Source: a virus
Strand: one strand, 5' to 3'
Length of the DNA stretch: 63,631 nt
IMG/VR virus record: IMGVR_UViG_3300048088_000081
Span: 1-63,631 of that record
The notes under the pieces are model-generated. The model saw only the letters and a program-made list of their open reading frames with translations, searched no databases and was not told the origin of the DNA. Numbering within the stretch: position 1 is the first letter of the stretch; each line of letters begins with the position of its first letter. Of the stretch, positions 11,801 to 63,336 are shown piece by piece. The position numbers and the translations under genes are program-made.

Positions 11801-14800
11801 GCGTCTTGCTCTAATTCTTCCTTGGTGTCTCCAAACGAACCGGCCCAGGCGTCGAACTTGTCGAGCCCCATTTCCTTCAGGGTGCCCTCCTGCAAATACC
11901 GACTGAGAGTAAACAACTCTGCCATGGTATTTGTAACTGGAGTGCCGGAAGCAAGAACTATGCTTCTTCCGGGATTCTGCTGGTCGAGGTAGCGTGTCTT
12001 AACGTAGAGGTCCCAAGACATCTTGGAGCCAACCGGATTTATTCCCTTCACGTTAGACATCTGAGTGGCGAAATCGAGTTTCCTAAAATTATGCGCCTCG
12101 TCTATTGACAGATGGTCAATGCCCATTTCTTCAAACGTAAAGACTTGGTCTTGGTTCTTTGACTTCTTTCCCGAAAGCCTTTGCTCCAGCCTCTCAATCT
12201 GTTTTTCTATCCGAGAGCGAGTAAGTTTGTTCTCGCGGTCGTTAGGAACATTGTTAAGCATCTCGCGATATTCTTCTACGGCATCTTCAATGATTTTATC
12301 GGAAAACTTATCGGAAATTGGAATCTTCTTGAAGGCAGAATGAGTGATAATAACAGCGTCGAGGTCGTCATTCGCTACGTTGGCAACAAATTGCTTCCTG
12401 CGGTCAGTGTGGAATTGTCGCTCATCGGCAACCGCAATCTTCGCTGTTGGATACTGTTCGTAGAATTCCTTCGCAAATTGCGCCAACATATGGTTGGGCA
12501 CGACAATCATTGGTTTACGTACGAGACCAAGTCGGCGCATTTCCATAACGGCGCCAATCATAGCTGAGGTCTTACCTGCGCCTACAGCGTGCGCCATGTA
12601 GGTATTACCACTCTCGATAATTCTGGCAACCACGCGAGTCTGATGAGGTCTCCAACTCCATTCTTTTGATATTCCCGGAGTCGTCAGATAGGAACCATCA
12701 TAAACTCTATCGACGTTCGTGTTGTATCCATCGTTATAAATCCCGGCAAGATTGTCGGACCTGTCAGGGTCCTCCCACACCCAGTTAGCAAACGCTTCCT
12801 TGAGGGCCTTGACTTTCTCCTGAGCGGCCTGGGTTTTGGCCACGTCAAGCATATATTTCGTCTGCCCATCCTCCTGATAGGGCTTCATTATCTTTGGGTT
12901 CTGCCTATTCAGGGCGTCCTGAATCAATAGTGGTGCCCTTCTTTCGTCAATGCCCCAGGTCGATGACGCGGCAATGGAGTAAGTGTCGCCGCTCACAAAC
13001 CACTGTGCTAGGGCAGGGACGTACTTAACCTTGAGGTTATCGAGGCCCAAGTGCTCTGTACCGAACTGTTGGATTACCTTTGGTGGTATCCATGGCATAC
13101 CAAGATATGCTCGAATGCGGGACGGCGGCAACGGGGCTGGCTGTGCGGCTTCTAAGGCTTCCACATTTCTGTTGAATGCCGGATCCTTCTGGGCCATGGC
13201 ACGAGCCATTTCGAGCTTCTGCTTGACGTTTCCGGAAAGATACTGCTCCTTGGTTTGCCATGTATTCTGCGTTCCCGGAACTTGGAAAATCCTATCTCCA
13301 AGGTCCTCGATAACACCCTGTTCTGTCTTGCCTACAAGTTTAGCGACTTCAGGGATGTCCAGTCGGCCCAACTTATTTAGAACATTCAAGACAGCGTCAT
13401 TGGTTGATTTAATCTCTGGAGGTTTTTCCTTTGCAATGATGTTATCGGTGAAAATCAGCGATTTTTTTGCATTCCCGGTCGATTTGTCATACTTCTCGAT
13501 GGCGCTTAGACGGTAGGATTCCGGGTCATCCATGAACGGATCGAGATTTGGACGCTTGACAATTGCAATGTCGTCCATTTCTTCCGGATTGAACGTGCCT
13601 TCGTCCCACGTCTTTCCTGCGGCCTTTGCTGCCTCCCTCGCAGTTTCACGAGCATTCGCAATCTGCGAAGTGGTTGCGCTCTTCATCGTAATAGAGCCGT
13701 CCGGATTCATTATCGGTCGTTTAGTCTTCATCTCCGTTGGGTCGAACGACCCTTCGTCAAACGGGTCTCCTAAATAGCGAGCCTCCTCGCGAGCTTCATC
13801 CCTTTCGCCTTCAGCTTGGATTTTAGTTGGACGCTTGAATGTGGTATTTTCCTTGTTGATAGGCCCGTGTTTAGCAACAAAGGAATCATAAGACTTATTG
13901 AGTTCTGCCCTCGCCTTTACGGCGCCTTCAATGTCACCTGATAGGTCAGCAACATAGACATCCCGCAGTGAGTTCTTAATCGGTATCAGCCCCCTTATTA
14001 TCTCCATACCTTCGCTGGTTTTACCTCCAGTCACTCCCTTGCCGCGTCCCGCTACGGGCACTCCTGCACCGTTGTCCATCTGGTACAGAACGCCATTAGG
14101 ACCGATGTAGAAGCTACCATCCTTCTTTTCGGTCGAGGCGAAGTCTGCTATTGGGTTGGAATCTGTAGCTCTGACATTAAAAACACCCTCCGGGAGACGT
14201 GCGATGGCTTCCGCGAGGTCTCTCGTGAAGTCCTGTCCTGGACGGGCGTGGACGCCATAACGACCCTTATAGAGCTTATCGAACCATCCTTGGTCTCCCA
14301 GCACCATTTCAGGATGGTCTACGAAATACTTGTTATTGTTCCCCGTTTGGATATTCCCGTCAGAATCTGGAAGATCAACGGGAGTTACTTCGGTCCAAGA
14401 CCTATCTCCCGGAGACTCATCGGCGTGTCTCTTGCGAAGGAAAATAATATCCGTGGTAACGTCAGTTCCAGCGTTCTTTCTAAATGCGTTACTGGGAAGC
14501 CTAATAGCCCCAACTAGATCCGCTCGGTCGGCAAGATACTGCCTTGCAGATGGATCCGCTTTGTTCATGGTCCCGGCAGAGGAAATGAACGCTACGACGC
14601 CACCCGGCTTAACTCCATCGAGAGACTTGGCAAAGAAATAGTCGTGCAGAAGCATATTCTTATCGGCATACTTCGGGTCAGCCTTAATTACGGTATCCGC
14701 GAATGGTGGATTGCCGATAGCTAGGTCAAAAGTGTTCTCTGGGAGTGGAGTCCTTGTAAAGTCTCCTTGTGATACGCCCCATTTCGGATATAGGAGTTTG

Positions 14801-17784
14801 GCGATTCTTGCCGTGGTCTTGTCGTATTCCAGACCGATATAGTGAGAATTAGACGCTACATCCCCCGGCATCATACCGGCGAAGTTCCCCACGCCCATTC
14901 CCGGTTCGTAAATCTGTCCGCCCTTGAACCCCATCCTCTGGACGGCTTCCCACATGGCCCTAACAACTGGCTCTGCGGTGTAGTGAGCATATTGGATTGA
15001 GCGTCTAGCAGTGGCGTATTCGTCATCCGGAAGAAGTTCTTTCAGCCTAGCGCCGATAACCTCGTAGCCTTTGCCGAAATTACCTCCGGAGTCCGGGAAC
15101 GCTCCCTTGATTCCTCCCCACCCAACGTACTTAGCAAGTTCCTGCTGTTCCTCTCTGGTGGCGAGTCTCGCTTCGTTCTCGATTTTAAGCGCAAGTTCAA
15201 TAGAGCGAACGTTGTCTCTAGCTTTCTGCGCCCAACCCCTCTCTTCCATGAGGGTACCCGGCTCGATAACGTGGTTTACTCCCGTGACGTTAGCGGCCGG
15301 TCCGAGAACAGGGACTTCATCTCGTCCTGGCTCGCTGATGTCTCCTGGTTCTGGGGGAAGTCCAACATCTGCGCCCGCACCACCTCCTCCCACGTCCTCT
15401 GCTCGTTCAGGTCCGCTTGGGGGTTCGACTTCGCCAACGCTGCTAGTTTCTTGTGGGCTTCCTCCGCCTTCGCCTGGGCCACCTTCTGCAATTGGCCGCT
15501 CTTCGTTAGGCGCCGGAACTCCCTCGGGTCCTGGTCCCTCAGTGCTTGGAGGTACATTGACTTGTACGTCTCCTGTAGAAGGTTGTATGTCATTTGCGGC
15601 CTCTTCTGCGGTCTTATACTCAGGATGAGCATTACGGTCTACGCTGATGCCCATGCCGTTACGACTCGGCACCATGGCGACCGGTTCCGTGTGGCGTATG
15701 CCGTTTTCGACATATGAGCGGACACCACGGGCGTCTTCGTATAGAGTTTGTCCGTCAGAGTTTTGGCCTATGGCGGTTAATCCCGGAGGTGTAGGCGTTT
15801 CCTCAACCGGGGTTAGCCCGGTCGTATCGAGCGGGGGCTTTTCAGGGTTTGCAAGCTCCTGCGCCGCTGCCCTGGCGCGGTCCAGTGTGGGGTAAATCTT
15901 AACCCCGGCAGTCTGTTGTGCGTCAGTGTCACGGAGGACTACGTTATATCGCTTCCCATCTGAATTCTTGACAATTAGGACTTCCGTGCCGTTCTCGCCG
16001 GGGAATCTTTCAATGATGGGTTTGTTAGGGGGGCGAAATGCTATCCCAGTTGAAGCCGTCTGTCCTACATTTATACGCTCCATATTGGTTTTAGAGGACG
16101 TTGACCCCAAAATACTAAGTTGGCGGCCATCTTCTGTAACGGCGTCTGGTGCCAATGACGCCCTGTCCAGCAATTCAGACAACCCCTTGGTATCAAGACC
16201 AAGTTCTTTCTTTAGTTGAGCGTGCCAAGCCACCTCACCGCCCTTGGCGTCTATTTTCTTTACAGCATCATAAAGTCTATCAACATCTGAGTTTCTTTCT
16301 CTTCCTACCGCACTTTCCGGTTCCTTGCCACCTTCGCCAGCGCTCGGCCCGTTCTCGCCGCCTTCACCAACCGGCTCTTGCGTGCCGGGTCCTTCTCCTG
16401 GTTGGCTCTCTGCAACAGGCGGTAGGCCAGTGTCGCGTGCTCCTTGGATGTCAGCAGCATGATTTTCCTCTAAATATGCTTGTTCGATGGCGTCTATTGG
16501 GTCTTTTTCTTGTCCGGTTGCGAGTAATTTTGCGGCGCCCTCAAGAGAAGTGGCGTCGATTTGCTCGGGGCCAATCCCTTCCTGCGCAGCAGTGTCCAGA
16601 ACTTCCTGAGCCGCCGACTCAATTGCAGGCTTTGATGCCTCTGGGATGTTCTCACGGGGCTTCTCTTCCATTCCCTCTGGGATTGGCTCTACAGCCGCAG
16701 GGATAGGCTCTTCTTTGGGAGTCTCGTCGGTCAAACCAAGCCGCTTACGCAGATTGTCGGCCAGTTCTCGGTCGGAAAGCTTGGGTGGGAGAGCCGGAGG
16801 TGGCTGTGGAGACGGTTCCGGCTCGGGCGGAGCCTCGGGGGGCGCTGGCTCTGGAGGCTCACCAGCGGCCTCTGTAGGAGGCGGGAGTAGCCTTTGGGTG
16901 GTATCATCTGCCGCTGCTTTCTGGGCGGCCTTATTACGGATAAATTCGTCTATTTCGGACCGGGTCTTGGCACCATTGATTTTGGCGTCAACCTCATCGG
17001 CTTGACGCATAAAGGAATCGGCCTCGGGGCCAATTCCCGTTCTCTGGGATATTGGCTTCTGGAGGGGAGCCAAAGGCCCAACCACGGCACCACTGAGAAG
17101 GTTCCCGATGATTCGCTGTACGTCGGGAGAATATCCATCTTGCGGATCGTATAGGTCCTGAGCAATCTGGGAGGCAAGGAATTGCTGGGCCTCGCCAACC
17201 GAGGCAAACGCTACACCGGATTGGATAGCCTGCTGGAGCTTTGCCGTTCCCCATGCGGTCCAGGTGGGACCGGCGGCTTCGATGGGACGGAGAATAGCGT
17301 GGAGGGGAATGGCACCTAAGGCGGTATTGACTACGGCCCCACGGATAAATGCCTGATGGGCGACCTCGGGGGACGCACCGTGCTTTTCGGCGTCTTCGGC
17401 CTGCTCTTCGCCGCCGACTATGCCGAAATAGGCAGCGCCACCCAGGACTCCGCCAGCCACAACGGCGGGCGCGGCGGAAACGAGAGAGCCGATGCCCTTC
17501 CCTACAGTTGGGATAATGCCTTGCTGGTCTGCCTCACTTAGGGGAACGTCCGTGTCAGTACCGGCTGAAAGCCGCGTACCAGCCTGAGTTAGACCTTCCG
17601 AATCAGTAAGCCTACCGAGGCCACGCAGGCCAGCGCCGGCAGTATCTTGGATAGTGCGCGCGACATTAGCGGCGCCAACCTCATACCACGGTCGGCCGGA
17701 GGGGATATCTGGAGGAGCGTTTTCGTCAACCGGAATGAGACCGCTTAGGTCAAAATCCGGAGGAGTGTTAGGATCTTGGTCCAT
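8827..17784 (-). CDS. Giant polyvalent protein: ejection-like N terminus, N6-adenine MTase, SNF2 helicase, metallopeptidase, InPase-like domain (DarB-like)
   Basis: 2985 residues. Residues 1-260 are Gly/Ala-rich with hydrophobic stretches as in internal virion proteins; about 300-490 is Pro/Glu/Gly linker. Near 860-890 is a TREEQ...YVGWGG lead-in, then an adenine methyltransferase with motif I EPGMGVGNF (about 959) and catalytic NPPF (about 1025). An SNF2-type helicase follows: Walker A HAVGAGKTS (about 1732), DEAH (about 1895), ASGTPV, and motif VI QRIGRALRQG (about 2252). A coiled coil separates it from a metallopeptidase motif HESWH (about 2661). The last 140 residues have YGYI and DHVDCYIGP, the pyrophosphatase-like domain of polyvalent proteins. 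P1 DarB (methylase plus helicase) is packaged and shields incoming DNA from type I restriction. The 1-base overlap with the 590-aa gene implies co-translation with ejection proteins. Domain calls are by motif; virion location is inferred. Confidence 0.9.
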   Translation of the reverse strand: MDQDPNTPPDFDLSGLIPVDENAPPDIPSGRPWYEVGAANVARTIQDTAGAGLRGLGRLTDSEGLTQAGTRLSAGTDTDVPLSEADQQGIIPTVGKGIGSLVSAAPAVVAGGVLGGAAYFGIVGGEEQAEDAEKHGASPEVAHQAFIRGAVVNTALGAIPLHAILRPIEAAGPTWTAWGTAKLQQAIQSGVAFASVGEAQQFLASQIAQDLYDPQDGYSPDVQRIIGNLLSGAVVGPLAPLQKPISQRTGIGPEADSFMRQADEVDAKINGAKTRSEIDEFIRNKAAQKAAADDTTQRLLPPPTEAAGEPPEPAPPEAPPEPEPSPQPPPALPPKLSDRELADNLRKRLGLTDETPKEEPIPAAVEPIPEGMEEKPRENIPEASKPAIESAAQEVLDTAAQEGIGPEQIDATSLEGAAKLLATGQEKDPIDAIEQAYLEENHAADIQGARDTGLPPVAESQPGEGPGTQEPVGEGGENGPSAGEGGKEPESAVGRERNSDVDRLYDAVKKIDAKGGEVAWHAQLKKELGLDTKGLSELLDRASLAPDAVTEDGRQLSILGSTSSKTNMERINVGQTASTGIAFRPPNKPIIERFPGENGTEVLIVKNSDGKRYNVVLRDTDAQQTAGVKIYPTLDRARAAAQELANPEKPPLDTTGLTPVEETPTPPGLTAIGQNSDGQTLYEDARGVRSYVENGIRHTEPVAMVPSRNGMGISVDRNAHPEYKTAEEAANDIQPSTGDVQVNVPPSTEGPGPEGVPAPNEERPIAEGGPGEGGGSPQETSSVGEVEPPSGPERAEDVGGGGAGADVGLPPEPGDISEPGRDEVPVLGPAANVTGVNHVIEPGTLMEERGWAQKARDNVRSIELALKIENEARLATREEQQELAKYVGWGGIKGAFPDSGGNFGKGYEVIGARLKELLPDDEYATARRSIQYAHYTAEPVVRAMWEAVQRMGFKGGQIYEPGMGVGNFAGMMPGDVASNSHYIGLEYDKTTARIAKLLYPKWGVSQGDFTRTPLPENTFDLAIGNPPFADTVIKADPKYADKNMLLHDYFFAKSLDGVKPGGVVAFISSAGTMNKADPSARQYLADRADLVGAIRLPSNAFRKNAGTDVTTDIIFLRKRHADESPGDRSWTEVTPVDLPDSDGNIQTGNNNKYFVDHPEMVLGDQGWFDKLYKGRYGVHARPGQDFTRDLAEAIARLPEGVFNVRATDSNPIADFASTEKKDGSFYIGPNGVLYQMDNGAGVPVAGRGKGVTGGKTSEGMEIIRGLIPIKNSLRDVYVADLSGDIEGAVKARAELNKSYDSFVAKHGPINKENTTFKRPTKIQAEGERDEAREEARYLGDPFDEGSFDPTEMKTKRPIMNPDGSITMKSATTSQIANARETAREAAKAAGKTWDEGTFNPEEMDDIAIVKRPNLDPFMDDPESYRLSAIEKYDKSTGNAKKSLIFTDNIIAKEKPPEIKSTNDAVLNVLNKLGRLDIPEVAKLVGKTEQGVIEDLGDRIFQVPGTQNTWQTKEQYLSGNVKQKLEMARAMAQKDPAFNRNVEALEAAQPAPLPPSRIRAYLGMPWIPPKVIQQFGTEHLGLDNLKVKYVPALAQWFVSGDTYSIAASSTWGIDERRAPLLIQDALNRQNPKIMKPYQEDGQTKYMLDVAKTQAAQEKVKALKEAFANWVWEDPDRSDNLAGIYNDGYNTNVDRVYDGSYLTTPGISKEWSWRPHQTRVVARIIESGNTYMAHAVGAGKTSAMIGAVMEMRRLGLVRKPMIVVPNHMLAQFAKEFYEQYPTAKIAVADERQFHTDRRKQFVANVANDDLDAVIITHSAFKKIPISDKFSDKIIEDAVEEYREMLNNVPNDRENKLTRSRIEKQIERLEQRLSGKKSKNQDQVFTFEEMGIDHLSIDEAHNFRKLDFATQMSNVKGINPVGSKMSWDLYVKTRYLDQQNPGRSIVLASGTPVTNTMAELFTLSRYLQEGTLKEMGLDKFDAWAGSFGDTKEELEQDAAGGYKPVTRFSKFVNVPTLSSMVRQVMDVVTSKQLGQYVTRPTIKGGRRLNQADKSEALTAYQAQLAQRMEAIKRRRGPPKKGDDIMLSVINDGRHAAIDMRLVDNTYKSNVPSKLDLLVNNAHSIYEQTTKKDFHSVVPSRSNSGEPIMMYSEKPTSTGPATQMIFANLGLSGGRGFSVPDYIRAELVRRGVPRDQIANIADYKSHTDKQKLFNDMNEGKVRFLIGSTAKMATGVNAQKRLYAIHNLDPLWYPSDDEQRIGRALRQGNMNPEIEIHDYATNGTYDSSMWKMMGRKAKFIQDFFEGDPNLVEMDDLGEASQYEQASAITTNDPRLIQLTELRQDLEKAQRRQSAFESEVYAIKGRQKEAEKKIQYANDDIVRLEDNIKKRQDITGDKFKATTLGKTYTKRADFADALFKNLQKISTADNKGKKFDVGEIGGFPLNAEVQEYTSFGGGQGTQKTYSPALTMKLSGGDGYFRNIRANTPIGLVQSMESVLKSFEGDIEDKKSDIAKNKKFLKDSKEKSEAKFTGGPEIERLKQEVRDLEASMKTPDTPPPPEADPDLYTMDELNEIGEENDPTESARADGKSLPARTADVVKLAKIIQGIVGDKVKMEFPDIISAGNKSSWGDLSADTWGGVYAPMANLIKVAMADPIFPNKIDTAYHESWHAVEDHFATPMEMALLKKEEPELRRIVQKELDRQKNAVDKISDTEIRAIAFEAYARDRTSGAGLSHGIRRFFERMINILRRVRNSIHGYGFKTSADLFDAAFSGKMKERESRRETGLGSRLADANIDTAYKNNPAMRNSEIEKYRKMAREQVPKRAAGGRVEASNIAEPTPAQAKAGNYSKDHINVHGLNISIENAKGSYRHGVGKDGKAWRSRLPAHYGYIRGTEAKDLDHVDCYIGPYIRSHHVYVIDQLNADTGKYDEAKCFIGFPSRFAALNAFHEAFSDGLAGKRFGHIKEMTMDEFKTWLRDGNTKKPVRYKEAA

Positions 17785-41185: not shown

Positions 41186-44116
41186 TTACAGAGAAACATT
41201 CATGAGGTTGCCATAGAGACTGGCGTTTGAGTTATTGCTTATGGCGTTACTGGCAATCGAGGTCGGGAAAGCAGAAGTTTGAGCTGTCAGTGCCCCATTC
41301 CAAGGAACCATAGTTATGCTTGTGGCTGTCGCTGTCTGGCCAATCAGCTTTAGATCAGTGTTGAAATTTGTCAGAACGATATTTGAAACCGACGCAAGAG
41401 TGGTGGCCGTTCCAGAGGTTGTGACAGCAGTTGCCCCCAATACTGCCAACCAGTATTCTCCGGCGGAAAGAAGCGCACTCCCAACCGGGAAGTTTGCCAG
41501 AATTAGCCCGGTTACGTTGCTAAGCAAGTTTGCTTGGCTAACGGTTGTCCCGGCACTGGAGCTTCCTCCTGCCGAGCTAAATGTGCTTGAAGTCGATGCG
41601 CCATTAGTATCAATGTTGCCGACAAATCCAATGGTATACGACTGCGCCAAAGATGCCTGAGTGGCGTTCGTAAGAACTATGCTTACGCTCTCTGTGATAC
41701 CAAATGACCAAGCGTTCGACACAGCACTTGCTAATGCCGTGGAATTCGCTCCGGTTTGTCTCGTATAAAATCCAACTGTTTCGCTGTATTTCCATACATT
41801 AGAGCGCGTTCCTGTGGCGTTTGTCGATCCGGAAACGGCAGCATTTATGCTGAGACTCATAAGTCGATTCATGCGGCATACTTGAAGTTGCCCAGGAACC
41901 TCAATGTGCTGTAAATACAATGACGAATTACCAAGAGATGACGCCGAAGAGTTTGGACCAAATTCCCAAGGCTCAAACTGCGACATCGGGAGTAACGCAG
42001 AAATTGTTATGCTATTTGAATTAGAGCTAAGACTAATGTTTGTCCCGGCAAGAAGGAACGACTGAACGGGCGCGCTTACTATAAATCCGCTATTGGACGC
42101 TTCAATAGATATTGCCCCAGCACCAGCCATACTTAAAGAACGGGCGTCGTACGTTCCGCTTGTGCTTACTGTTGTATTTGAGCTTGCATACACGCCTCCA
42201 GTCTGGTTAGTTTGAGTAGGGGCGCTAATTACCCAACCAGAGTTAGAGGCGGCTACACCAACGGCTCCGCTACCAGCAATACTGATATGACTTAGGTTGT
42301 AAGTACCACTTGAGGTCCCGAAAGTGTTGGAAGAGGCGTACAGAGTACCAGTGCTTACACCACCACCGCCAGCACTTATTGTTATGGTATTTGAACTCTG
42401 TGAGAGCGTGACGTTTGCTCCGCCAGCAAAAACAACAGTTCCGGACGAGAACGTTGTGAGTGTACCAGTGGTATTTCCAGATGCACTTACGATATTGGCA
42501 AAAGCGTCTACCGTTATACTAGAACCGGCTGACGATAATGTAACCATATTACCCTGAGTTAGAGTCGATAGTGCGATTCCTGAGATGGTGATAGTGTTTG
42601 AACTCTGAGAGAGAGTAACATTATTACCTCCAGCAAATACCATCGTCCCAGAGGAAAACGTCGTTAGTGTGCCGGTAGTATTTCCGGAAGCGCTAACGAT
42701 GTTGTAGGAAATATTTGCCCCAGAAATAGTAATCGTATTTGACGACTGTGAAAGTGTAATATTATTACCACCAGCCAAAACAATGGTACCGGTCGAGAAG
42801 CTTGTGGTCGTACCTGAGGTGTTTCCGCTGATCTCAATGATATTCACGCCGTCGGCGGCGGCGGCAGGGGCGCTGATAACAACAGACCCGGCAGACATAC
42901 CGATAGAAACAACGCCCTTACCGGCGAAGGACAGAGACCTTGCATCTACCGTACTGGACGAAGATTGGGCTGTGCTCTGTGAGGCGGCGTATATGCCAAC
43001 GGACTGGTTCGTCTGAGTCGGCGCCGAGATTACCCAACCGGAGTTGGAAGCCGCAATAGAAATAGCCCCAGACCCAGCGATAGAGATCGTACGGGCATCG
43101 TACGTACCGCTTGATGTTCCGAACGTATTGGACGATGCATACACGCCGCCGCTTTGGTTTGTCTGCCCTCCAGCTGCCCCACTAATGACAAGTGAGCCTG
43201 CCTGCATACCAACGCTGACGTTTCCCGCACCTACAATAGACAGAGACCTTGCATCAACTGTCGAGCTTGAAGACTGACCAGTGGTTTGTGAGGAGGCATA
43301 AAGACCCATCGACTGGTTAGTCTGAGTCGGAGCACTAATCACAAATCCAGAATTGGAAGCGGCCACAGAAACAGCCCCGCTTCCGGCTATGCTTATGGTG
43401 CGAACATCAAACGTACCGCTGGAGGTTCCAAATGTGTTAGAAGAAGCATAGGCACCGCCAGTATCATTAGTTTGGACAGGAACCGAGATGATAAACCCTG
43501 AGTTCGAAGCAGCAACAGACGCGGCGCCACGGCCAGCAATACTCAACGACCTCGCGTCGTAAGTTCCAGAGGAAGTTCCAAATGTATTACTTGAGGCATA
43601 CACTCCGCCAGACTGATTCGTCTGCACCGGAGCGGAGATGACGAAACCGCTGTTGGAAGCAGCGATACTGACAGCGCCAGAACCGGCGAGACTCAGGGTA
43701 CCGGCATTGTACGTTCCGGAAGACGTTCCGAACGTATTTGAGGAAGCGTAAAGATTCCCAGTTCCGGCCGCAGCATTCGCACCGGAAACCGTAATCGTAA
43801 CACCGCCAGCATCCGTAGACTGGCTGAGGGTCACATTGTTACCGCCAGCCAAAATAAGTTGATTGGCAACGGTCTTCGTTACACCGGCCGTATTACCGAT
43901 GTTGGAGACACCGGCCGCGAATCCTGCACCACCGGCCCCGCCGATGATACTTACGGAGTTCGAGGATTGAGAGAGAGTGATATTGTTTCCGCCAGCTAGA
44001 ACAAACGTCCCAGCCGGAAACGTAGCAAGAGTCCCGGCGGTATTTCCGCTTCCGCTTACAATATTCCCCCCGCCCTCTGCCGGAACCTCGACAGTCGGGG
44101 TGGCGAGATTGGTCAT
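41186..44116 (-). CDS. Repeat-rich long tail fibre
   Basis: 976 residues built mostly of two repeat types. Type A, about 48 residues and eight copies, begins YASSNTFGTSSGTYDAR and contains SIAGSGAVSIAASNSGF. Type B, about 40 residues and five copies, reads SASGNTTGTLTTFSSG then FAGGNNVTLSQSSNTITIS. The C-terminal 270 residues are non-repetitive and hold MSQFEPWEFGPNSSA, a probable receptor-binding or trimerisation head. The repeats would form a long beta-structured shaft. Recombination between copies could change shaft length. Confidence 0.72.
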   Translation of the reverse strand: MTNLATPTVEVPAEGGGNIVSGSGNTAGTLATFPAGTFVLAGGNNITLSQSSNSVSIIGGAGGAGFAAGVSNIGNTAGVTKTVANQLILAGGNNVTLSQSTDAGGVTITVSGANAAAGTGNLYASSNTFGTSSGTYNAGTLSLAGSGAVSIAASNSGFVISAPVQTNQSGGVYASSNTFGTSSGTYDARSLSIAGRGAASVAASNSGFIISVPVQTNDTGGAYASSNTFGTSSGTFDVRTISIAGSGAVSVAASNSGFVISAPTQTNQSMGLYASSQTTGQSSSSTVDARSLSIVGAGNVSVGMQAGSLVISGAAGGQTNQSGGVYASSNTFGTSSGTYDARTISIAGSGAISIAASNSGWVISAPTQTNQSVGIYAASQSTAQSSSSTVDARSLSFAGKGVVSIGMSAGSVVISAPAAAADGVNIIEISGNTSGTTTSFSTGTIVLAGGNNITLSQSSNTITISGANISYNIVSASGNTTGTLTTFSSGTMVFAGGNNVTLSQSSNTITISGIALSTLTQGNMVTLSSAGSSITVDAFANIVSASGNTTGTLTTFSSGTVVFAGGANVTLSQSSNTITISAGGGGVSTGTLYASSNTFGTSSGTYNLSHISIAGSGAVGVAASNSGWVISAPTQTNQTGGVYASSNTTVSTSGTYDARSLSMAGAGAISIEASNSGFIVSAPVQSFLLAGTNISLSSNSNSITISALLPMSQFEPWEFGPNSSASSLGNSSLYLQHIEVPGQLQVCRMNRLMSLSINAAVSGSTNATGTRSNVWKYSETVGFYTRQTGANSTALASAVSNAWSFGITESVSIVLTNATQASLAQSYTIGFVGNIDTNGASTSSTFSSAGGSSSAGTTVSQANLLSNVTGLILANFPVGSALLSAGEYWLAVLGATAVTTSGTATTLASVSNIVLTNFNTDLKLIGQTATATSITMVPWNGALTAQTSAFPTSIASNAISNNSNASLYGNLMNVSL
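42040..44070 (-). repeat. Protein-coding tandem and interspersed repeats of the long fibre
   Basis: Eight type-A units (about 145 bases) and five type-B units (about 120 bases) alternate in groups: B B A A A A A A B B B A A from N to C terminus. Units are similar but not identical at DNA level and each keeps the reading frame. Coordinates are approximate. Confidence 0.65.
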
Positions 44117-47133: not shown

Positions 47134-48060
47134 CTACGATGTGGGCAAGGTACCCCAAATTGCGCGCGGGTCATTGTAATTGAACGAGTAGCGCTCCCAA
47201 CCCTTCACCATGAGGTTATCAGTCGTAAAATCGACCTGCATGTCTATCTCAAACGGCTCGCGTTCGAGATACAGCAGTCCCGGCTGGTCCGTCTTGATGA
47301 ACCATGGGAATGCGGAGGTGAAGAACACGTCCTTGACGTATTCGGAGACGCCGCCGGCAACGGTTGGCAGAACGTTGATGTCGTTCATTGCCGTTCCGGG
47401 ACGGAGTTCCGTGCGCAGGAGGCGGAGGGCGGTTGGCTCGTTGTTCGGGTGAATAACGAGCGTCTTTCCCGTGGCCATCATACGGAGGCCGGCGTTGTCG
47501 TAGAAGCCGGTCTGGATGCTAATCATCCCGTTCAGGAGGGATGCTTCGTTCAGGTCTACGTCCGTAGTTGGACGGTTGGCCCAGGTTGTCGGACCGGATC
47601 CGCCGGCCGGCAGCGGGTGCGCGGTGTTCAAGAGCGAGACGCCGTCGCCACCGACTGTGGTGTCGTAGGTGCCTGCGTTATTGAAGACGGCAGCCGCGTA
47701 AATTTCCTTGGTCTGAGCGAAGGAGCGCTGGAGACCGAGGTTGGATGGGCGGAACTGGGCCTTGTAGAGGTTGTCCGCGATTGTATTACGGGTAATCGCG
47801 TAACCCAGGCCGATGCCGGTATGAAGCTGGTTGTAGACCCATGCTTCTCCCGAGTTGTTGTCGAATACGGTCTGGCCGCCGTCCGACTTAAGCTGTGCGA
47901 GAGGCAGGAAGCGCATCGAAGCGGTGCGTTCCTGGGCCATCTCTGACTTGCCCTGGTCGAACAGTTTTGGCCAGATTGACGGCCACTGCTTGTATTCACC
48001 CGTGACACCACGGAGGCCGGGGAGCAGAAGGTCCCGAATGGCTGCGACGTTAATTGCCAT
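47134..48060 (-). CDS. Major capsid protein (Mu gpT-like)
   Basis: 308 residues, usual size for HK97-fold capsid proteins of the Mu gpT group. Features: N-terminal IRDLLLPGLRGV, IGLGYAITRNTIADNLYK, RSFAQTKEIYAAAVFNNAG, GDGVSLLNTAHPLPAGG, a central helix, KTLVIHPNNEPTALRLL and a C-terminal P-domain strand region ending WGTLPTS. The position after scaffold and decoration genes and before the HNH insertion agrees. A small protein at 62646-62894 repeats two of these blocks. Confidence 0.82.
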   Translation of the reverse strand: MAINVAAIRDLLLPGLRGVTGEYKQWPSIWPKLFDQGKSEMAQERTASMRFLPLAQLKSDGGQTVFDNNSGEAWVYNQLHTGIGLGYAITRNTIADNLYKAQFRPSNLGLQRSFAQTKEIYAAAVFNNAGTYDTTVGGDGVSLLNTAHPLPAGGSGPTTWANRPTTDVDLNEASLLNGMISIQTGFYDNAGLRMMATGKTLVIHPNNEPTALRLLRTELRPGTAMNDINVLPTVAGGVSEYVKDVFFTSAFPWFIKTDQPGLLYLEREPFEIDMQVDFTTDNLMVKGWERYSFNYNDPRAIWGTLPTS

Positions 48061-49133: not shown

Positions 49134-49733
49134 TTATATCGCCGTCCGTACATCATGCGGAGTAAGCCATTTTCCTTGACGCCATACTTCAGTTTTAATC
49201 TCTACCTCTCGCTCGTACTTTTCCTCAAATTCCTTTAGTTCCCGCCATGGATTTGACCTGTCTTCGACCGCCTGTATATCGCCTTCTATAATATCCCTTA
49301 GTACTCCAAGTTTATTTGACGGATACCCTGTATTAAGTGTATCCAGAGCAAAATCCCTTGCTGCCACGGCCTCTTTTTCGTTTGAATATGTATTGAAAGA
49401 GTGTTCGGTCTCCATTGTTACGCTGCCGTCTCTATACTGATAAAAACGCGCCTTTTCCAAACATGACCGAACATATTCATCGGATTCTTTATCCAACGCA
49501 GCCCATTGGTTCTTGTCCTGCTCTTCAAGCCACGAGGAAAGATACCGTTTGCCGTCCTTGGATAGAGTGCTTGAACCATCTTTCTCAAGTACGGTTTTCC
49601 ATTTACGGGTTCTTCCCTTTGTCGCTAATGGAACAACCGTAGCCACAGACCCAGCCACCGCAGACAAATCGGTTGCTGCGATGGCGAACGGTGCTAGACC
49701 TAGCCACGATAGTATCGTTCTGCGGGATATCAT
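49134..49733 (-). CDS. Protein with Tat-like signal sequence
   Basis: 199 residues. The N terminus ISRRTILSWLG then a hydrophobic stretch to about residue 28 matches the twin-arginine signal (S-R-R-x-I/F-L), followed by Ala-rich sequence with a plausible cleavage site. The mature part is highly charged and helical (EEQDKNQWAALDKESDEYV, LKEFEEKYEREVEIKTE). No domain recognised. Located among head genes, just before the RHH gene, with a 2-base gap. Alternatively the N terminus is just a membrane anchor. Confidence 0.6.
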   Translation of the reverse strand: MISRRTILSWLGLAPFAIAATDLSAVAGSVATVVPLATKGRTRKWKTVLEKDGSSTLSKDGKRYLSSWLEEQDKNQWAALDKESDEYVRSCLEKARFYQYRDGSVTMETEHSFNTYSNEKEAVAARDFALDTLNTGYPSNKLGVLRDIIEGDIQAVEDRSNPWRELKEFEEKYEREVEIKTEVWRQGKWLTPHDVRTAI

Positions 49734-50544: not shown

Positions 50545-50664
50545 TTACGTTATTAGGTAATTGATGAGGTCATAGAGGCCGAAACCCATGCCAACTATGA
50601 ACAGAAGGAATGGAACGTAGATGAGGAACAGTATTGTCAGTTCCTCGATGTCTCTACGTCTCAA
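50545..50664 (-). CDS. Tiny membrane protein
   Basis: 39 residues from a TTG at 50664 that overlaps the scaffold stop (TTGA), ending at TAA 50545-50547, nine bases before the next start. Sequence: charged N terminus (RRRDIEELT), then one hydrophobic helix (LFLIYVPFLLFIVGMGFGL), then DLINYLIT. It fits the stop/start coupling rule of this genome. Function unknown. Confidence 0.5.
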   Translation of the reverse strand: MRRRDIEELTILFLIYVPFLLFIVGMGFGLYDLINYLIT

Positions 50665-51695
50665 TGTGTGACTCGGCCGAGTTTGCCTTCAGCCTCAAGC
50701 TCCAGGAGGTTTCTGGCGTACTGTCCGAATGCTTCCTTGTCAGTGAGGTGCGGGAACGATAGTTTCGCGGCCTCTCTCTGGTCTTTATTCAAGGTTACAG
50801 ACCGAGTCGTACGGTTACCTGACGCGGCTGGCACGTCCCGATTCACGGGGGCTGATGGTTGCGCCCTTGGCTTTGGAGTTGGCTTTGGCTCGACCACGGC
50901 AGGAGTCACCTCAGCGGCGGCCGATACTGGAGTCCGGAGACCAAGCTTTTCCTCTATGGTCCGAAAGTAGTCGTCGCTCTCCAGGGTATAACCTGCCCTG
51001 ATTGCTGCGTAGTGCCCTTCCATCATCGAAGCATTCTTGACCGGATCTCCTCCGACTTGTGGAACGGCGCATTCCGGGTGAGACCGTAGCCACGCCTGAC
51101 TTCTGGGGGTGAACCCAGCCACGTATTTATCGAATGAGTTACCAGGAGCCTCTACACGTCCTTCCGTGACTGGACGCTTCGGCGCCAACTCAAGACGGAC
51201 TTTTTCCGCTTCGAGTCGGTCAATCTGCGCGGCTGATTTCGAGAGAGCCACTTGTGCCGCAGAAGCCTTCGGGAATTCACCGGCTTCCATCGCGCGCTCG
51301 AATTCACGCTGAGCGGCCTCCTGTTGCTGCTTTGCGGCCTCGATTCCTGAAGTTACAGCGGTTAGCTCGCTGTTGTCGGCCCTTTCACGAAGGGATGCAG
51401 CCTCTTCCTCTTGTGCCCTGCGCGCTTCCTCAGCGGCGAGTCGTGCAGAGCGTTCGTTCTGAGCAGTCTGTTCTGCGGCCACGCGAGCGGCCCGCTCAGT
51501 CTCCGCTGTCTTTGTCGCGGCCGTAAGTGCAGCGGCGGCATCGTCTACGGCTGACTTGTCGGGTTTTTGCGTTACCTGAACCTGAAGTTTTGGCTCTGGC
51601 TTTGGAGTCTCTTCTGCGAGATCGGGATTGTCCGTCACATCAACAGTGACTTCTCCGTCATCGTCTACTTCGATTTCTGCGTCTTTATCGGACAT
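50661..51695 (-). CDS. Scaffolding protein-like coiled coil
   Basis: 344 residues, acidic N terminus (DKDAEIEVDDDGEVTVD), then a long helical, Ala/Glu/Arg/Gln-rich region (about 50-175) with coiled-coil character, then FDKYVAGFTPRSQAWLRSHP and a Pro-rich linker, ending in a helical C terminus (LNKDQREAAKLSFPHLTDKE). Scaffold proteins of short-tailed phages have this composition and lie upstream of the capsid gene, as here. A C-terminal capsid-binding helix is expected. Confidence 0.68.
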   Translation of the reverse strand: MSDKDAEIEVDDDGEVTVDVTDNPDLAEETPKPEPKLQVQVTQKPDKSAVDDAAAALTAATKTAETERAARVAAEQTAQNERSARLAAEEARRAQEEEAASLRERADNSELTAVTSGIEAAKQQQEAAQREFERAMEAGEFPKASAAQVALSKSAAQIDRLEAEKVRLELAPKRPVTEGRVEAPGNSFDKYVAGFTPRSQAWLRSHPECAVPQVGGDPVKNASMMEGHYAAIRAGYTLESDDYFRTIEEKLGLRTPVSAAAEVTPAVVEPKPTPKPRAQPSAPVNRDVPAASGNRTTRSVTLNKDQREAAKLSFPHLTDKEAFGQYARNLLELEAEGKLGRVTH

Positions 51696-57209: not shown

Positions 57210-57401
57210 TTATTCGTTGACTGTTGCATTCTCGGTATCCTCGACTCGATTCGACGACATTATAGCAGACTTCGGAAATACATTCAGTACCCCAGGCACC
57301 TTGTATGCCTCCGTCTCGGCGTCAATCTGAGAGGTCGCCTTCACCTCGACCCAGTCCTCGATCTTGCGGTAGACTCGGACGCGATAGAGGCATGGTCTCA
57401 A
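57210..57401 (-). CDS. Small phage protein
   Basis: 63 residues from a TTG that overlaps the terminase stop (TTGA). YRVRVYRKIEDWVEVKATSQ followed by DAETEAYKVPGVLNVFP forms a beta-alpha-beta domain typical of small phage hypotheticals. Function unknown. Confidence 0.55.
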   Translation of the reverse strand: MRPCLYRVRVYRKIEDWVEVKATSQIDAETEAYKVPGVLNVFPKSAIMSSNRVEDTENATVNE

Positions 57402-59095
57402 TGCAGCACCCCATAGCTCTCCGCCACGCTCTCCTGCCGGCGGAAGTTCATCATGTCGTCTTCCATCGCGGCTGACATCTCGTCGCCACGCATGATGAGT
57501 CCAGACTCACGAAGCCACGATATCGCCATGCTAGCCGTATCCACCAGGTCGTCGTGGTCTGATTTCGGGAACGATTGGCACTGCGTCAAAACCATTTCCG
57601 CCCACCTTGTGTCAGGTGCCCATATCGTCCCATCAGCGAACAGCGGCTCTACAGACCACGCCCTAGATACCTTATCACCAGTTGGATCAATTAGCTCTAC
57701 ACCCCAGTTTTCTCTCGCATACAAACGGTTAATTTCCTGGGCAACGTCGCGGCCGCGCGTCTTGTTTTCAATTAGGAGGCGCTGTACCTTATACTTCTTG
57801 CAGGTATTCGCCACCCACTCGATAAGTCCCCAACTCTGCTGCTTGCGCTGCTCGAAATTTACCTTAGCCTCTCCCTGAATATATTCAACTGGAATGCCGT
57901 GCAGCGGTAGTCTTTTATTCCACGCGAACATCAGCATAAGGCGGCGATTTTTTGCTCTATCTATCCAGACACCCCACACCGTAAGAGCGTTGAAGTCGTT
58001 CTCTTGTTTCTCGCCGTACGAAGTGTCGAGGCTTGCGAGAATCAATTCCATGTGAGGAAACTCTTTGCGCTCCGCATTCCATACTAGCCCGTATCTTTCG
58101 GCCTCCTCGTGGTCCCAAAGACGCCAGTATTCGCGCTTAAGAATACCGCCGCCCTTCGGTGTCGGGCATTGCTGAAGACGGCCGCTGGACATATACGGTC
58201 CAAGGGCCTCTTCTAGCTTTTCAACTTCCCGCTCCCCGAACCGCTCCGGCCACATGAGTTCTCCCTCAAATGTGCGAGGGTCTTCCCATGGATCCGGATT
58301 ATCATACTGAGGCAGTCTTACAGTAACGCAGTGTCGCGTATCATCATATCGCATCGGCAACATAAGATGCGTCCAGCGCTCATCGCTATCTAGAATTACG
58401 CCAGATAGATCGCCTTCGTGAAGTCGCTGCATCACCACTACAATGGAGCTTTTCTTTGGGTCGTTCAAGCGAGTGGAGTGAAGTTCCTTCCACCAGTTCT
58501 TAACCCGCTCGCGGTCAGATTCTGTTTCAACGGCCTCTGTGTTGTGTGGATCATCTATAACTAAAATATCGCCACCGATACCGAGCAACGTTCCCCCCAC
58601 GGAGGTTGCAATCCTCGAACCTCCCGCAGTCGTATCAAATTGTTGCTTAGAGTTCTGGTCCCACCTAAGCTCTACCTTTTCGCCCCATCTCTGCTGATAC
58701 CAAGGGCTCTGAATCAGCCTGCGGTTCTTATTTGAATTCTGAAGAGCAAGGTCGTGATTATAACTTCCGCACAAGAAACGAACCTGCGGCCCGCTCCAGT
58801 ACGATATATTCGAGCGCGCCCAAGTCCAAGCCGGCCACGAAATGGATGTAATGTTAGTTTTTCCCGTACGAGGGCTGATATTTATCAGCAATCTAGGGAT
58901 GTGCCCTAGAGTTACGCCCTCCAAATGGTCGCAAAGGGCATCGACGGCCCAAGATTTTTTGTATTCCGAACTATCAATCGTAGACCAAGCGCCGCGAACG
59001 AAACTTGTTAGGCTATCCTCGTATCTCTCTTGCTCTACGCGCTTGGTTAACTCTGCAATCTTTCCTTTGAGATCTAGAAGTTCTTGTTGGTTCAA
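57398..59095 (-). CDS. terL: Terminase large subunit
   Basis: 565 residues. The N-terminal ATPase has the deviant Walker A SPRTGKT (74-80) and Walker B ILVIDD (177-182), with the coupling segment VVVMQRLHEGD. The C-terminal nuclease has SLDTSYGEKQENDFNAL (about 349), LIENKTRGRDVAQE (about 445) and the closing DHDDLVDT (about 530), the acidic residues that bind two metals. It pumps DNA into the prohead through the portal and cuts the concatemer. The small terminase gene is not certain; a 73-residue protein upstream is the best candidate. Confidence 0.93.
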   Translation of the reverse strand: MNQQELLDLKGKIAELTKRVEQERYEDSLTSFVRGAWSTIDSSEYKKSWAVDALCDHLEGVTLGHIPRLLINISPRTGKTNITSISWPAWTWARSNISYWSGPQVRFLCGSYNHDLALQNSNKNRRLIQSPWYQQRWGEKVELRWDQNSKQQFDTTAGGSRIATSVGGTLLGIGGDILVIDDPHNTEAVETESDRERVKNWWKELHSTRLNDPKKSSIVVVMQRLHEGDLSGVILDSDERWTHLMLPMRYDDTRHCVTVRLPQYDNPDPWEDPRTFEGELMWPERFGEREVEKLEEALGPYMSSGRLQQCPTPKGGGILKREYWRLWDHEEAERYGLVWNAERKEFPHMELILASLDTSYGEKQENDFNALTVWGVWIDRAKNRRLMLMFAWNKRLPLHGIPVEYIQGEAKVNFEQRKQQSWGLIEWVANTCKKYKVQRLLIENKTRGRDVAQEINRLYARENWGVELIDPTGDKVSRAWSVEPLFADGTIWAPDTRWAEMVLTQCQSFPKSDHDDLVDTASMAISWLRESGLIMRGDEMSAAMEDDMMNFRRQESVAESYGVLH

Positions 59096-62237: not shown

Positions 62238-62549
62238 ATGAACGCTATCGAGGCCCTCGCAAAATGCGGACACGCCATGTTCGGCCGAGAATGGCTCAGG
62301 AAAACCGCAGGTTTAGTCGGTATGAGCGCCACAACTTTCAGCAAGTGGAAAAACGGCTCCATCAAGAGCTTCGATTCGAATCACTCGATATTCCCGGTCC
62401 TGTCCTACCATATGAGGCAGAAGGCCACGAATCTTATGGATACGGCAGCCGAAATTGATATGTGGAGTAAGTTATGCGCTCCAAGTACCCAGACCGTGAC
62501 GCCGACATCATCCGCCGATTCGTCGCCGGAGAGGGAACCAAGCGAATAG
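62238..62549 (+). CDS. Helix-turn-helix (Cro/XRE-like) protein
   Basis: 103 residues. The segment ALAKCGHAMFGREWLRKTAG followed by LVGMSATTFSKWKNG (about residues 6-40) reads as a helix-turn-helix of the phage repressor type. Residues 45-80 are an uncharacterised helical part. The last 25 residues (QTVTPTSSADSSPEREPSE) overlap the next gene by 76 bases and look low-complexity. The first gene of a divergent operon, so a regulator of the early/late switch is plausible. Confidence 0.65.
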   Translation: MNAIEALAKCGHAMFGREWLRKTAGLVGMSATTFSKWKNGSIKSFDSNHSIFPVLSYHMRQKATNLMDTAAEIDMWSKLCAPSTQTVTPTSSADSSPEREPSE

Positions 62550-62662
62550 CACACCTGTACGGGATAACCCGTGAGAGAGTTTACCAATTGGTTAAAGAGC
62601 GCACGGGACTGACACGACGTAAACTACGGATACAGGGGAATTTCGATGCCGGTAGAACTTAG
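62474..62662 (+). CDS. Small sigma-region-4-like HTH protein
   Basis: 62 residues, ATG at 62474 with GGAG seven bases upstream. ADIIRRFVAGEGTKRIAHLY followed by GITRERVYQLVKERTG strongly resembles the -35 binding helix-turn-helix of sigma-70 region 4 (the GxSRERVRQI pattern). No other sigma domain is present, so it could recruit or block polymerase as a stand-alone fragment, or be an ordinary HTH regulator. It starts inside the preceding gene. Confidence 0.6.
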   Translation: MRSKYPDRDADIIRRFVAGEGTKRIAHLYGITRERVYQLVKERTGLTRRKLRIQGNFDAGRT

Positions 62663-62894
62663 ACATATGCGGGAGTTAATGCTTCCTGGCCTGAGAAATG
62701 CGGCGCTTTGTCGGTCCTTTTCATACACCAAAGAATTCTATGCGGCGGAAGCATTCAACTCAGCATATGAGTCGGCACCGATCCTCCCAACCGTCAGTCT
62801 CCCAGTCGCCGTCGCAATGGGTGCCGCCGCTGTCCTCATCAATAACCCTGAGGTGACACGGCGAAACCTGTTCAATAGGGTGCTGAACATATGA
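62646..62894 (+). CDS. Small capsid-protein-like fragment
   Basis: 82 residues. Two blocks match the major capsid protein in the same order: MRELMLPGLR (capsid IRDLLLPGLR) and RSFSYTKEFYAAEAFNSAY (capsid RSFAQTKEIYAAAVFNNAG, 12 of 19 identical). The roughly 90 capsid residues between them are missing, and the C-terminal 40 residues are unrelated and hydrophobic (VAVAMGAAAVLI). This could be a rearranged capsid remnant or a small protein made to interact with capsid assembly. Encoded with HTH genes on the opposite strand from the capsid, in an ATGA overlap with the next gene. Confidence 0.6.
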   Translation: MPVELRHMRELMLPGLRNAALCRSFSYTKEFYAAEAFNSAYESAPILPTVSLPVAVAMGAAAVLINNPEVTRRNLFNRVLNI

Positions 62895-63079
62895 CCGATT
62901 TCTCAGGGTGGATGATATCAAACCAGAACGGAACACGCCACGTCGTTCCAATAAACGACCTCAAGCCCCATAAGGTAGAATCGTGCTGGTGTAACCCAAC
63001 AGATGATGAAGGACTCATAATCCACAATTCAATGGATTTGAGAGAGAAATTCGAGACTGGAGATAGAGTTCCGTCATGA
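62891..63079 (+). CDS. Small conserved-looking phage protein
   Basis: 62 residues. NGTRHVVPINDLKPHKVESC then WCNPTDDEGLIIHNSMD is a pattern I know from small phage hypotheticals with a Cys/His cluster (HVVP, CWC, HN), perhaps metal-binding. ATGA overlaps on both sides. Function unknown. Confidence 0.6.
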   Translation: MTDFSGWMISNQNGTRHVVPINDLKPHKVESCWCNPTDDEGLIIHNSMDLREKFETGDRVPS

Positions 63080-63336
63080 CCTTTCCGCGAACTCCAGGCG
63101 ACTTAGTCTGTGACGCATTCAGAACGGCAGTAGAATCAGAGGGCCTATCACGAGTCGAAGTCGGCGCCGCCCTCGCAACACTCTTGGCTGGATTCATAAC
63201 CGTCCACGCCACAGAGGATCAGGTGGACGCCATCATGGAAATTATAACGGATACGGTGAAGGTACAACTCGCAGAGCACCGGAAGTTACTAGACTCTATG
63301 CCGGCAGAGGAAAAACGGAAGTCGCCGTTCGAGTAA
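63076..63336 (+). CDS. Small helical phage protein
   Basis: 86 residues, helical: GDLVCDAFRTAVESEGLSRV, EDQVDAIMEIITDTVKVQLA. Ends ten bases before the stop of a convergent minus-strand gene. Function unknown. Confidence 0.55.
   Translation: MTFPRTPGDLVCDAFRTAVESEGLSRVEVGAALATLLAGFITVHATEDQVDAIMEIITDTVKVQLAEHRKLLDSMPAEEKRKSPFE

Follow-up and report, generated by a model that had tools for sequence, protein, structure and literature searches.

Small phage genes that join pieces of the major capsid protein to a conserved hydrophobic tail

Introduction

The vertex protein gp24 of phage T4 is a paralog of the major capsid protein (MCP) and is built into the shell with its full-length fold. In the yeast retrotransposon Ty1, the consulted parts of the literature describe the Gag fragment p22/p18 as a trans-dominant inhibitor of particle assembly (PMC4599808, PMC8458377). 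The capsid-remodelling proteins PLE TcaP and SaPI rcm are encoded by satellites and, according to the sections available to us, act on phage capsid assembly in trans (PMC10945586, PMC12409344). The accessible text on CapRel(SJ46) reports that it binds the β-sheet and the spine helix of the MCP P-domain and that mutations allowing escape fall within residues 111-124 (PMC9712102).

The present analysis concerns a stretch of viral DNA of 63,631 nucleotides (IMG/VR record IMGVR_UViG_3300048088_000081), hereafter called the window. An earlier note had likened the product of a small open reading frame at 62646-62894 (+ strand, 82 aa) to the MCP encoded at 47134-48060 (- strand, 308 aa), and both reading frames are as it described them. 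A literature search that covered few subscription journals yielded no paper on a phage capsid fragment acting against assembly or superinfection and nothing relevant on mosaic capsid-fragment genes. Contig L001, which is 99.99% identical over 9,669 bases, extends the right end of the window by 5.3 kb (9670-15006). Internal repeats with 69-74% DNA identity were seen at 42093-43750 of the window, within a 976-aa ORF (41186-44116).

Results

The mini-protein and the major capsid protein

The following features of the window were compared.

47134..48060, - strand: major capsid protein, 308 aa, Mu gpT-like, assigned from annotated homologues, PHROG and Pfam
48010..48060, - strand: MCP residues 1-17, counterpart of module 1 (BLASTP)
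47674..47742, - strand: MCP residues 107-129, counterpart of module 2 (BLASTP)
62646..62894, + strand: capsid-mosaic mini-gene, 82 aa, with a match to the MCP and homologues in 12 other records
62646..62696, + strand: module 1, residues 1-17, similar to MCP residues 1-17, a putative N-terminal arm (BLASTP 8/17; 0 of 20,000 shuffles)
62697..62765, + strand: module 2, residues 18-40, similar to MCP residues 107-129, a putative spine helix (BLASTP 14/23; shuffles)
62781..62891, + strand: C-terminal hydrophobic module, residues 46-82, common to 9 distinct homologues and not MCP-like

Homologues of the MCP are annotated as major capsid protein in phage records, and among 41 aligned relatives 35 were matched by PHROG_371 'major head protein' and 22 by Pfam Mu-like_gpT. 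Since the predicted structure of the MCP was unusable (pLDDT 37) and a search for solved structures of its relatives found none, we infer which segments correspond to the N-terminal arm, the E-loop, the spine helix and the C-terminal strand.

Pairwise BLASTP aligned residues 18-40 of the mini-protein with MCP residues 107-129 (14 of 23 identical, E 2e-6) and residues 1-17 with MCP residues 1-17 (8 of 17 identical, E 9e-4). The two blocks are collinear in both proteins and are separated by 89 residues in the MCP, in agreement with the gap of about 90 residues noted earlier; the count of 12 identities among 19 positions in the second block likewise holds on the BLASTP alignment. The first block had been recognised from the motif LPGLR, which is a genuine part of it but too short, as the match spans Met1 to residue 17. 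When the mini-protein was shuffled 20,000 times, the best-block score averaged 27 (sd 4.3); none of the shuffles reached the observed score of 67 for the better block, although one scored 66. The first block (score 45) was not reached in 20,000 shuffles either, whether as a free local match or as a match of N-terminus to N-terminus. The shuffling check that the earlier note had called for thus supports its claim of two capsid-like blocks in the same order, and the capsid resemblance of the mini-protein is real.

The resemblance is confined to residues 1-40. The hydrophobic C-terminus, described as unrelated to the capsid, is indeed so: hhalign gave a probability of 0.1% against the MCP, and the idea that this module is a further MCP piece (A-domain) was rejected on the same value. 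Searches with the 82-aa protein revealed no capsid-family match in Pfam, PHROG or NCBIfam and no Pfam, NCBIfam or PADLOC family of any kind, the PHROG matches having E 0.14 and 0.68. An AlphaFold2 model of the mini-protein was poor (pLDDT 58, pTM 0.25). According to BLASTP, shuffles and homologues, the mini-protein contains sequence derived from a shell protein, as a p22-like capsid-derived inhibitor would.

In comparison with the MCP gene, the mini-gene agreed at third codon positions in only 6 of 18 and 6 of 24 cases, which is about chance level, and agreement was better at first and second positions. This pattern indicates that the two sequences resemble each other as proteins and that the mini-gene is no recent copy of the MCP gene. 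Recent duplication of the phage's own MCP gene was ruled out on these random third positions and because the own MCP seldom comes out as the best match among capsids.

Homologues and their conserved C-terminal module

The homologue search covered 37 records, of which 36 were found via the MCP type and one via the mini-protein; further scans added more. Nine distinct sequences in 13 records make up a family, here called group A: those of the window and G001; G004; G005; G008; G016 and G027; G038; G039, G040 and G041; G042; and G043. All nine have in common a C-terminal module of about 35 residues, in which a hydrophobic stretch is followed by the motif I-x-N-P-x-V-[ST]-R-R (with V/I variation), and in some members the stretch is preceded by a P-H-I-W-V-P-K-like motif. 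A profile of the nine proteins retrieved 11 ORFs at E≤2e-12 from 40 records, while the next non-member had E 0.067 and the best reversed ORF E 0.52; the window mini-protein, itself one of the nine profile members, scored E 3e-17. These searches indicate that the hydrophobic C-terminal module is the defining conserved part of the family. The Kyte-Doolittle maximum over 19 residues was 2.03 for the window mini-protein and 1.5-2.1 across group A, with two members below 1.6; judged by this hydropathy, the tail probably anchors the protein to a membrane.

No match to the mini-protein was found among 50,697 phage records, and in named phage records group A had no homologues, the matches being MCP genes only. 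Chimeras were likewise not seen in five phages with the same MCP family, of each of which 49-50 kb was read; in one of these, MW202675, the MCP gene lies outside the stretch read. Judging from the stretches read, the gene is not essential. Two planctomycete loci in genome_contigs (L208 and L209) came up as candidate bacterial homologues; they lie within open frames of 297 and 290 codons and were rejected as chance matches. The integrase domain PF00589, a sign of temperate life, was detected in 2 of 17 records and not in the window. Direct repeats of 68-138 nt were observed at both ends of G010, G011, G012, G014 and G021, and likewise of G022, G026, G030, G034 and G036, which suggests that these ten records are complete.

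Capsid pieces in the homologues

The front halves of the nine proteins were compared with 69 distinct MCPs. Eight were MCP-like, each with 0 of 300 shuffles as good, and carry these pieces:

Window: MCP residues 1-17 and 107-129
G004: MCP residues 275-304 and 110-129
G008: MCP residues 1-18, extending to 26 with the best-matching MCP
G016: MCP residues 1-35
G038: MCP residues 1-38
G040: MCP residues 1-26 and 51-66
G042: MCP residues 268-307
G043: MCP residues 51-68 and 81-93

The N-terminal arm is used in five of the eight. No MCP piece was detectable in the front half of G005:51168, for which 109 of 300 shuffles were as good. Homologues free of capsid similarity had been named in the earlier note as an argument against a capsid connection; this holds for one protein in nine, and the other eight carry MCP pieces, so that a capsid module is usual in the family and not obligatory.

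The phage's own MCP ranked 11, 61, 39, 54, 24, 3, 27 and 36 among the 69 MCPs as a match for the eight chimeras; for seven of the eight, ten or more of the other MCPs were a better fit to the pieces. Medians by MCP clade gave a mixed picture, in which the window mini-protein fits its own clade best and the G008 protein is level. The MCP 81-93 type piece of G043 matches MCPs from a different clade more closely than it does its own.

Locus and selection

The mini-gene is the third of five overlapping genes on the + strand. A promoter scan upstream of it found a single weak site, which does not exceed the yield of shuffled sequence, and none of the operon genes tested had a PADLOC match. The other four genes are as follows.

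62238..62549, + strand: operon gene, 103 aa, with an ortholog in G004
62474..62662, + strand: operon gene, 62 aa, weakly helix-turn-helix-like (HTH_28 E 1e-4, below Pfam's cut-off), with an ortholog in G004
62891..63079, + strand: operon gene, 62 aa, phrog_2864, overlapping the stop of the mini-gene (ATGA), without a match in G004
63076..63336, + strand: operon gene, 86 aa, with an ortholog behind the mini-gene of G004

In G004 the mini-gene occupies the same operon, preceded by homologues of the genes at 62238 and 62474 and followed by that of the gene at 63076. Where the window protein has MCP 1-17 its G004 counterpart has MCP 275-304, and the piece from MCP 107-129 and the tail are common to both. 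A second such pair is formed by G040 and G043, in which the flanking genes are conserved and the MCPs are identical at 297 of 303 positions (98%), but the chimera pieces are different. The comparison of the two pairs indicates that orthologs at one locus exchange MCP pieces.

Over the 50 codons that the window and G004 genes have in common, the MCP piece included, dN was 0.295 and dS 3.87 (saturated); the genes agreed at 17 of 50 third positions and at 77 of 100 first and second positions. Positions one and two were more conserved than position three in all nine non-identical chimera pairs, and two further pairs were identical. These codon patterns indicate purifying selection on the chimera genes and thereby make it improbable that they are relics. 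Of the two readings put forward in the earlier note, that of a leftover from capsid duplication is also disfavoured by the retention of the C-terminal module in nine homologues, by the different pieces at one locus and by a dN of 0.30 against a saturated dS.

Genomic neighbourhood

The chimera locus of G005 contains three recent short DNA copies, of 63 nt (97% identical), 42 nt (93%, out of frame) and 32 nt (100%), at positions 1232-1294/1841-1903, 1806-1847/2540-2581 and 2722-2753/3042-3073 of L085. They join the start or the end of neighbouring genes to chimeras, and no other short dispersed repeats were found in the 59,000 bases of G005 that were read. In G004, G008, G033, G036 and G040, no DNA repeats tied to capsid pieces were seen; with clear repeats in G005 alone, repeats were rejected as a general mark of patching. 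Judging from these repeats, patching with short segments is visible as DNA in G005, and the capsid pieces are older.

Two genes of the window were of interest in relation to the chimeras.

57398..59095, - strand: terminase large subunit, in relatives often adjoined by capsid-mosaic genes
50661..51695, - strand: scaffold-like protein, so named solely from its position and composition

In G008, G039 and G040 the gene for the terminase large subunit overlaps with the chimera, and in G043 it lies 3 bp from it, on the same strand; the chimeras of G004 and the window are 3.2-3.6 kb away from it, on the other strand. At L192 4279-4923, the start of the G042 chimera overlaps another gene, presumably a sialic-acid-type synthase, and at L185 3276-6102 the G038 chimera sits among genes which we take to be for sugar biosynthesis.

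The capsid protein as a source of small genes

Profiles of conserved window gene families with at least 10 members each were run against small ORFs (≤220 aa) at E≤0.01. The MCP profile gave eight matches, with window and G001 counted apart, and none among reversed ORFs. Four small ORFs matched the profile of the scaffold-like protein, presumably a head-assembly protein; all four matched its last 45 residues, and two of them are the near-identical pair G016/G027. What the remaining families matched were fragments at contig ends, full-length relatives or isolated ORFs. By these counts, the MCP stands out as a source from the conserved families tested, and the scaffold-like C-terminus comes next.

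The last residues of the scaffold-like protein, about 45 in number, recur in G004:16118-16564, G009:10912-11160, G016:24700-25299 and G027:22707-23306. The first of these proteins combines two hydrophobic segments, the scaffold-like C-terminus and a stretch which by eye resembles MCP 108-128, in that order.

An MCP profile of 69 sequences, searched against 21,831 ORFs of 40 records, gave matches at E≤0.01 to 15 small ORFs other than MCPs, spread over 14 records; two pairs of these ORFs are identical (G016/G027 and G039/G040); there were no reversed decoys at this threshold, and at E≤1 the search gave 20 real ORFs versus one reversed. Among the 15, G004:18973-19317 carries MCP 46-69, and G036:31428-31712 (+ strand) has a Tat-like signal sequence, as judged by reading, with MCP 3-35 at the C-terminus.

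Permuted capsid-like proteins

In a second set of proteins, group B, the MCP-like segments are permuted, with residues 7-20 followed by 257-288 and then by 84-111. Some of the nine proteins in its profile were picked for MCP likeness, which makes it partly circular that the profile recovers 39 of 39 full MCPs (E 4e-13 to 2e-7), in every case split into separate segments. At E≤0.01 it also matched 15 small ORFs in 10 records, the best reversed ORF having E 0.56, and hhalign gave a probability of 94% for group B against the MCP.

Three members (G014, G018 and G012:72757) begin with a Tat-like signal sequence. Related N-termini of the form x-R-R-x-x-L/F...A-L-P-F were noted in G014:34213-34563, G018:80779-81414, G012:72757-73104 and the window (49134-49733), in proteins that are otherwise different and some of which contain capsid pieces; the signal type was assigned by reading.

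Discussion

The mini-protein can be regarded as a capsid-fragment chimera, in which one or two short MCP pieces, apparently taken from the N-terminal arm, the E-loop, the spine helix or the C-terminal strand, are joined to a constant hydrophobic tail of about 35 residues. These segments contact other subunits in HK97-fold shells, so that a protein assembled from them would most likely bind MCP or scaffold subunits in trans. The bound subunits might be capped, sequestered or misdirected at the membrane, and the outcome would be a trans-dominant brake on head assembly. Our preferred, if tentative, reading of the sequence data is that the chimera may be a trans-acting capsid mimic which modulates or poisons head assembly, perhaps that of rival phages. 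It agrees with the other proposal of the earlier note, interference with or regulation of capsid assembly, which is consistent with all the observations. As targets, rivals with related capsids are favoured over the phage itself because at least ten foreign capsids fit better in seven of eight cases, with the caveat that old copies could look ancestral rather than foreign. An extension of this idea, which we hold to be quite doubtful, is that the diversifying locus might serve as a protein-level record of rival capsids, whose pasted pieces, together with the anchor, would poison matching phages in co-infected cells; the G043 piece of the MCP 81-93 type would then represent such a capture.

The main alternative, rather unlikely in our estimation, would be an immune decoy: a capsid fragment unable to trigger might occupy the capsid sensors of the host, perhaps at the membrane, and different pieces would reflect different sensors. 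Varying host sensors would explain the varying pieces, and by residue number, compared between MCPs that differ, both the second block of the window (MCP 107-129) and group B, which joins a C-terminal strand piece (257-288) to 84-111, may fall into the sensed surface. However, the N-terminal arm, which to our knowledge is not a sensed region, supplies pieces to five of the eight front halves, and we know of no capsid sensor in the hosts of these phages. A fragment of a sensed surface might also trigger the sensor instead, and the absence of PADLOC hits among the operon genes tested lends the decoy no support. Quite unlikely is an accessory part in the phage's own assembly, in which the protein would show capsid-like surfaces to its own head proteins, either as a nucleator at the membrane or by connecting the terminase with the shell. 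Several same-strand chimeras that touch or adjoin the gene for the terminase large subunit, and the reuse of scaffold-like C-terminal pieces, would fit such a part. It is difficult to reconcile with the presence of the C-terminal module in just 11 of 40 records, many of which are fragments, with the absence of the gene from five isolates as far as read, and with an own MCP that is usually not the best match. Moreover, the use of different pieces by orthologs whose MCPs are 98% identical is odd for a fixed structural part, and in the window the mini-gene and the head genes are on opposite strands.

The chimeras might also arise as by-products when a process patches small genes together from short duplicates of other genes, and their products would then have no capsid-related function. 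All three short dispersed repeats of G005 lie in its chimera locus, one of them out of frame, and one homologue is devoid of an MCP piece, as such a process would allow; yet MCP pieces are far over-represented in comparison with other genes, and amino acids are kept while third positions randomise, as in window and G004 with their low dN and saturated dS, which makes this origin very unlikely. Chance resemblance of a small unrelated protein is hardly credible: the blocks are short and one shuffle came within a point of the better block, but there are two collinear blocks, eight homologues with MCP pieces and 15 profile matches against no decoys. A capsid mimic acting in trans on head assembly is the reading we carry into the comparison with described systems.

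Like T4 gp24, the chimeras derive from the MCP and occur within the same kind of phage, but they retain only about 17-50 MCP residues, in an altered order in some members. With PLE TcaP and SaPI rcm, as portrayed in the text available for them, they would share small size and action on the capsid in trans, which for the chimera is a prediction; those proteins belong to satellites and are, as far as we know, not built from MCP sequence, whereas the chimera gene resides in a phage and its front half is MCP-derived. We know of no phage precedent for a family whose variable part has been rebuilt repeatedly from pieces of a shell protein that differ between orthologs. The architecture of the gene appears to be new in kind, and its mechanism is one that we infer.

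The studies of CapRel(SJ46) and of Lit/Gol bear on the family in that short MCP regions, namely the P-domain sheet, the spine helix and the Gol peptide, matter for recognition; both are host sensors, and the accessible part of that source describes no phage-encoded capsid-fragment decoy (PMC9712102). If the chimeras are decoys, their pieces would mark capsid surfaces that are read by bacterial sensors. The nearest parallel for the preferred reading is Ty1 p22, which in the consulted text is likewise part of the shell protein of the very element that encodes it. It differs in that its transcript begins within GAG and in being one fixed fragment, whereas the phage chimera is a separate gene with swappable MCP pieces and a constant hydrophobic tail, and its inhibitory action is a proposal. 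If the chimeras poison assembly, phages would possess a counterpart to the restriction factors that retroelements derive from Gag, and with it a way of competing within the cell.
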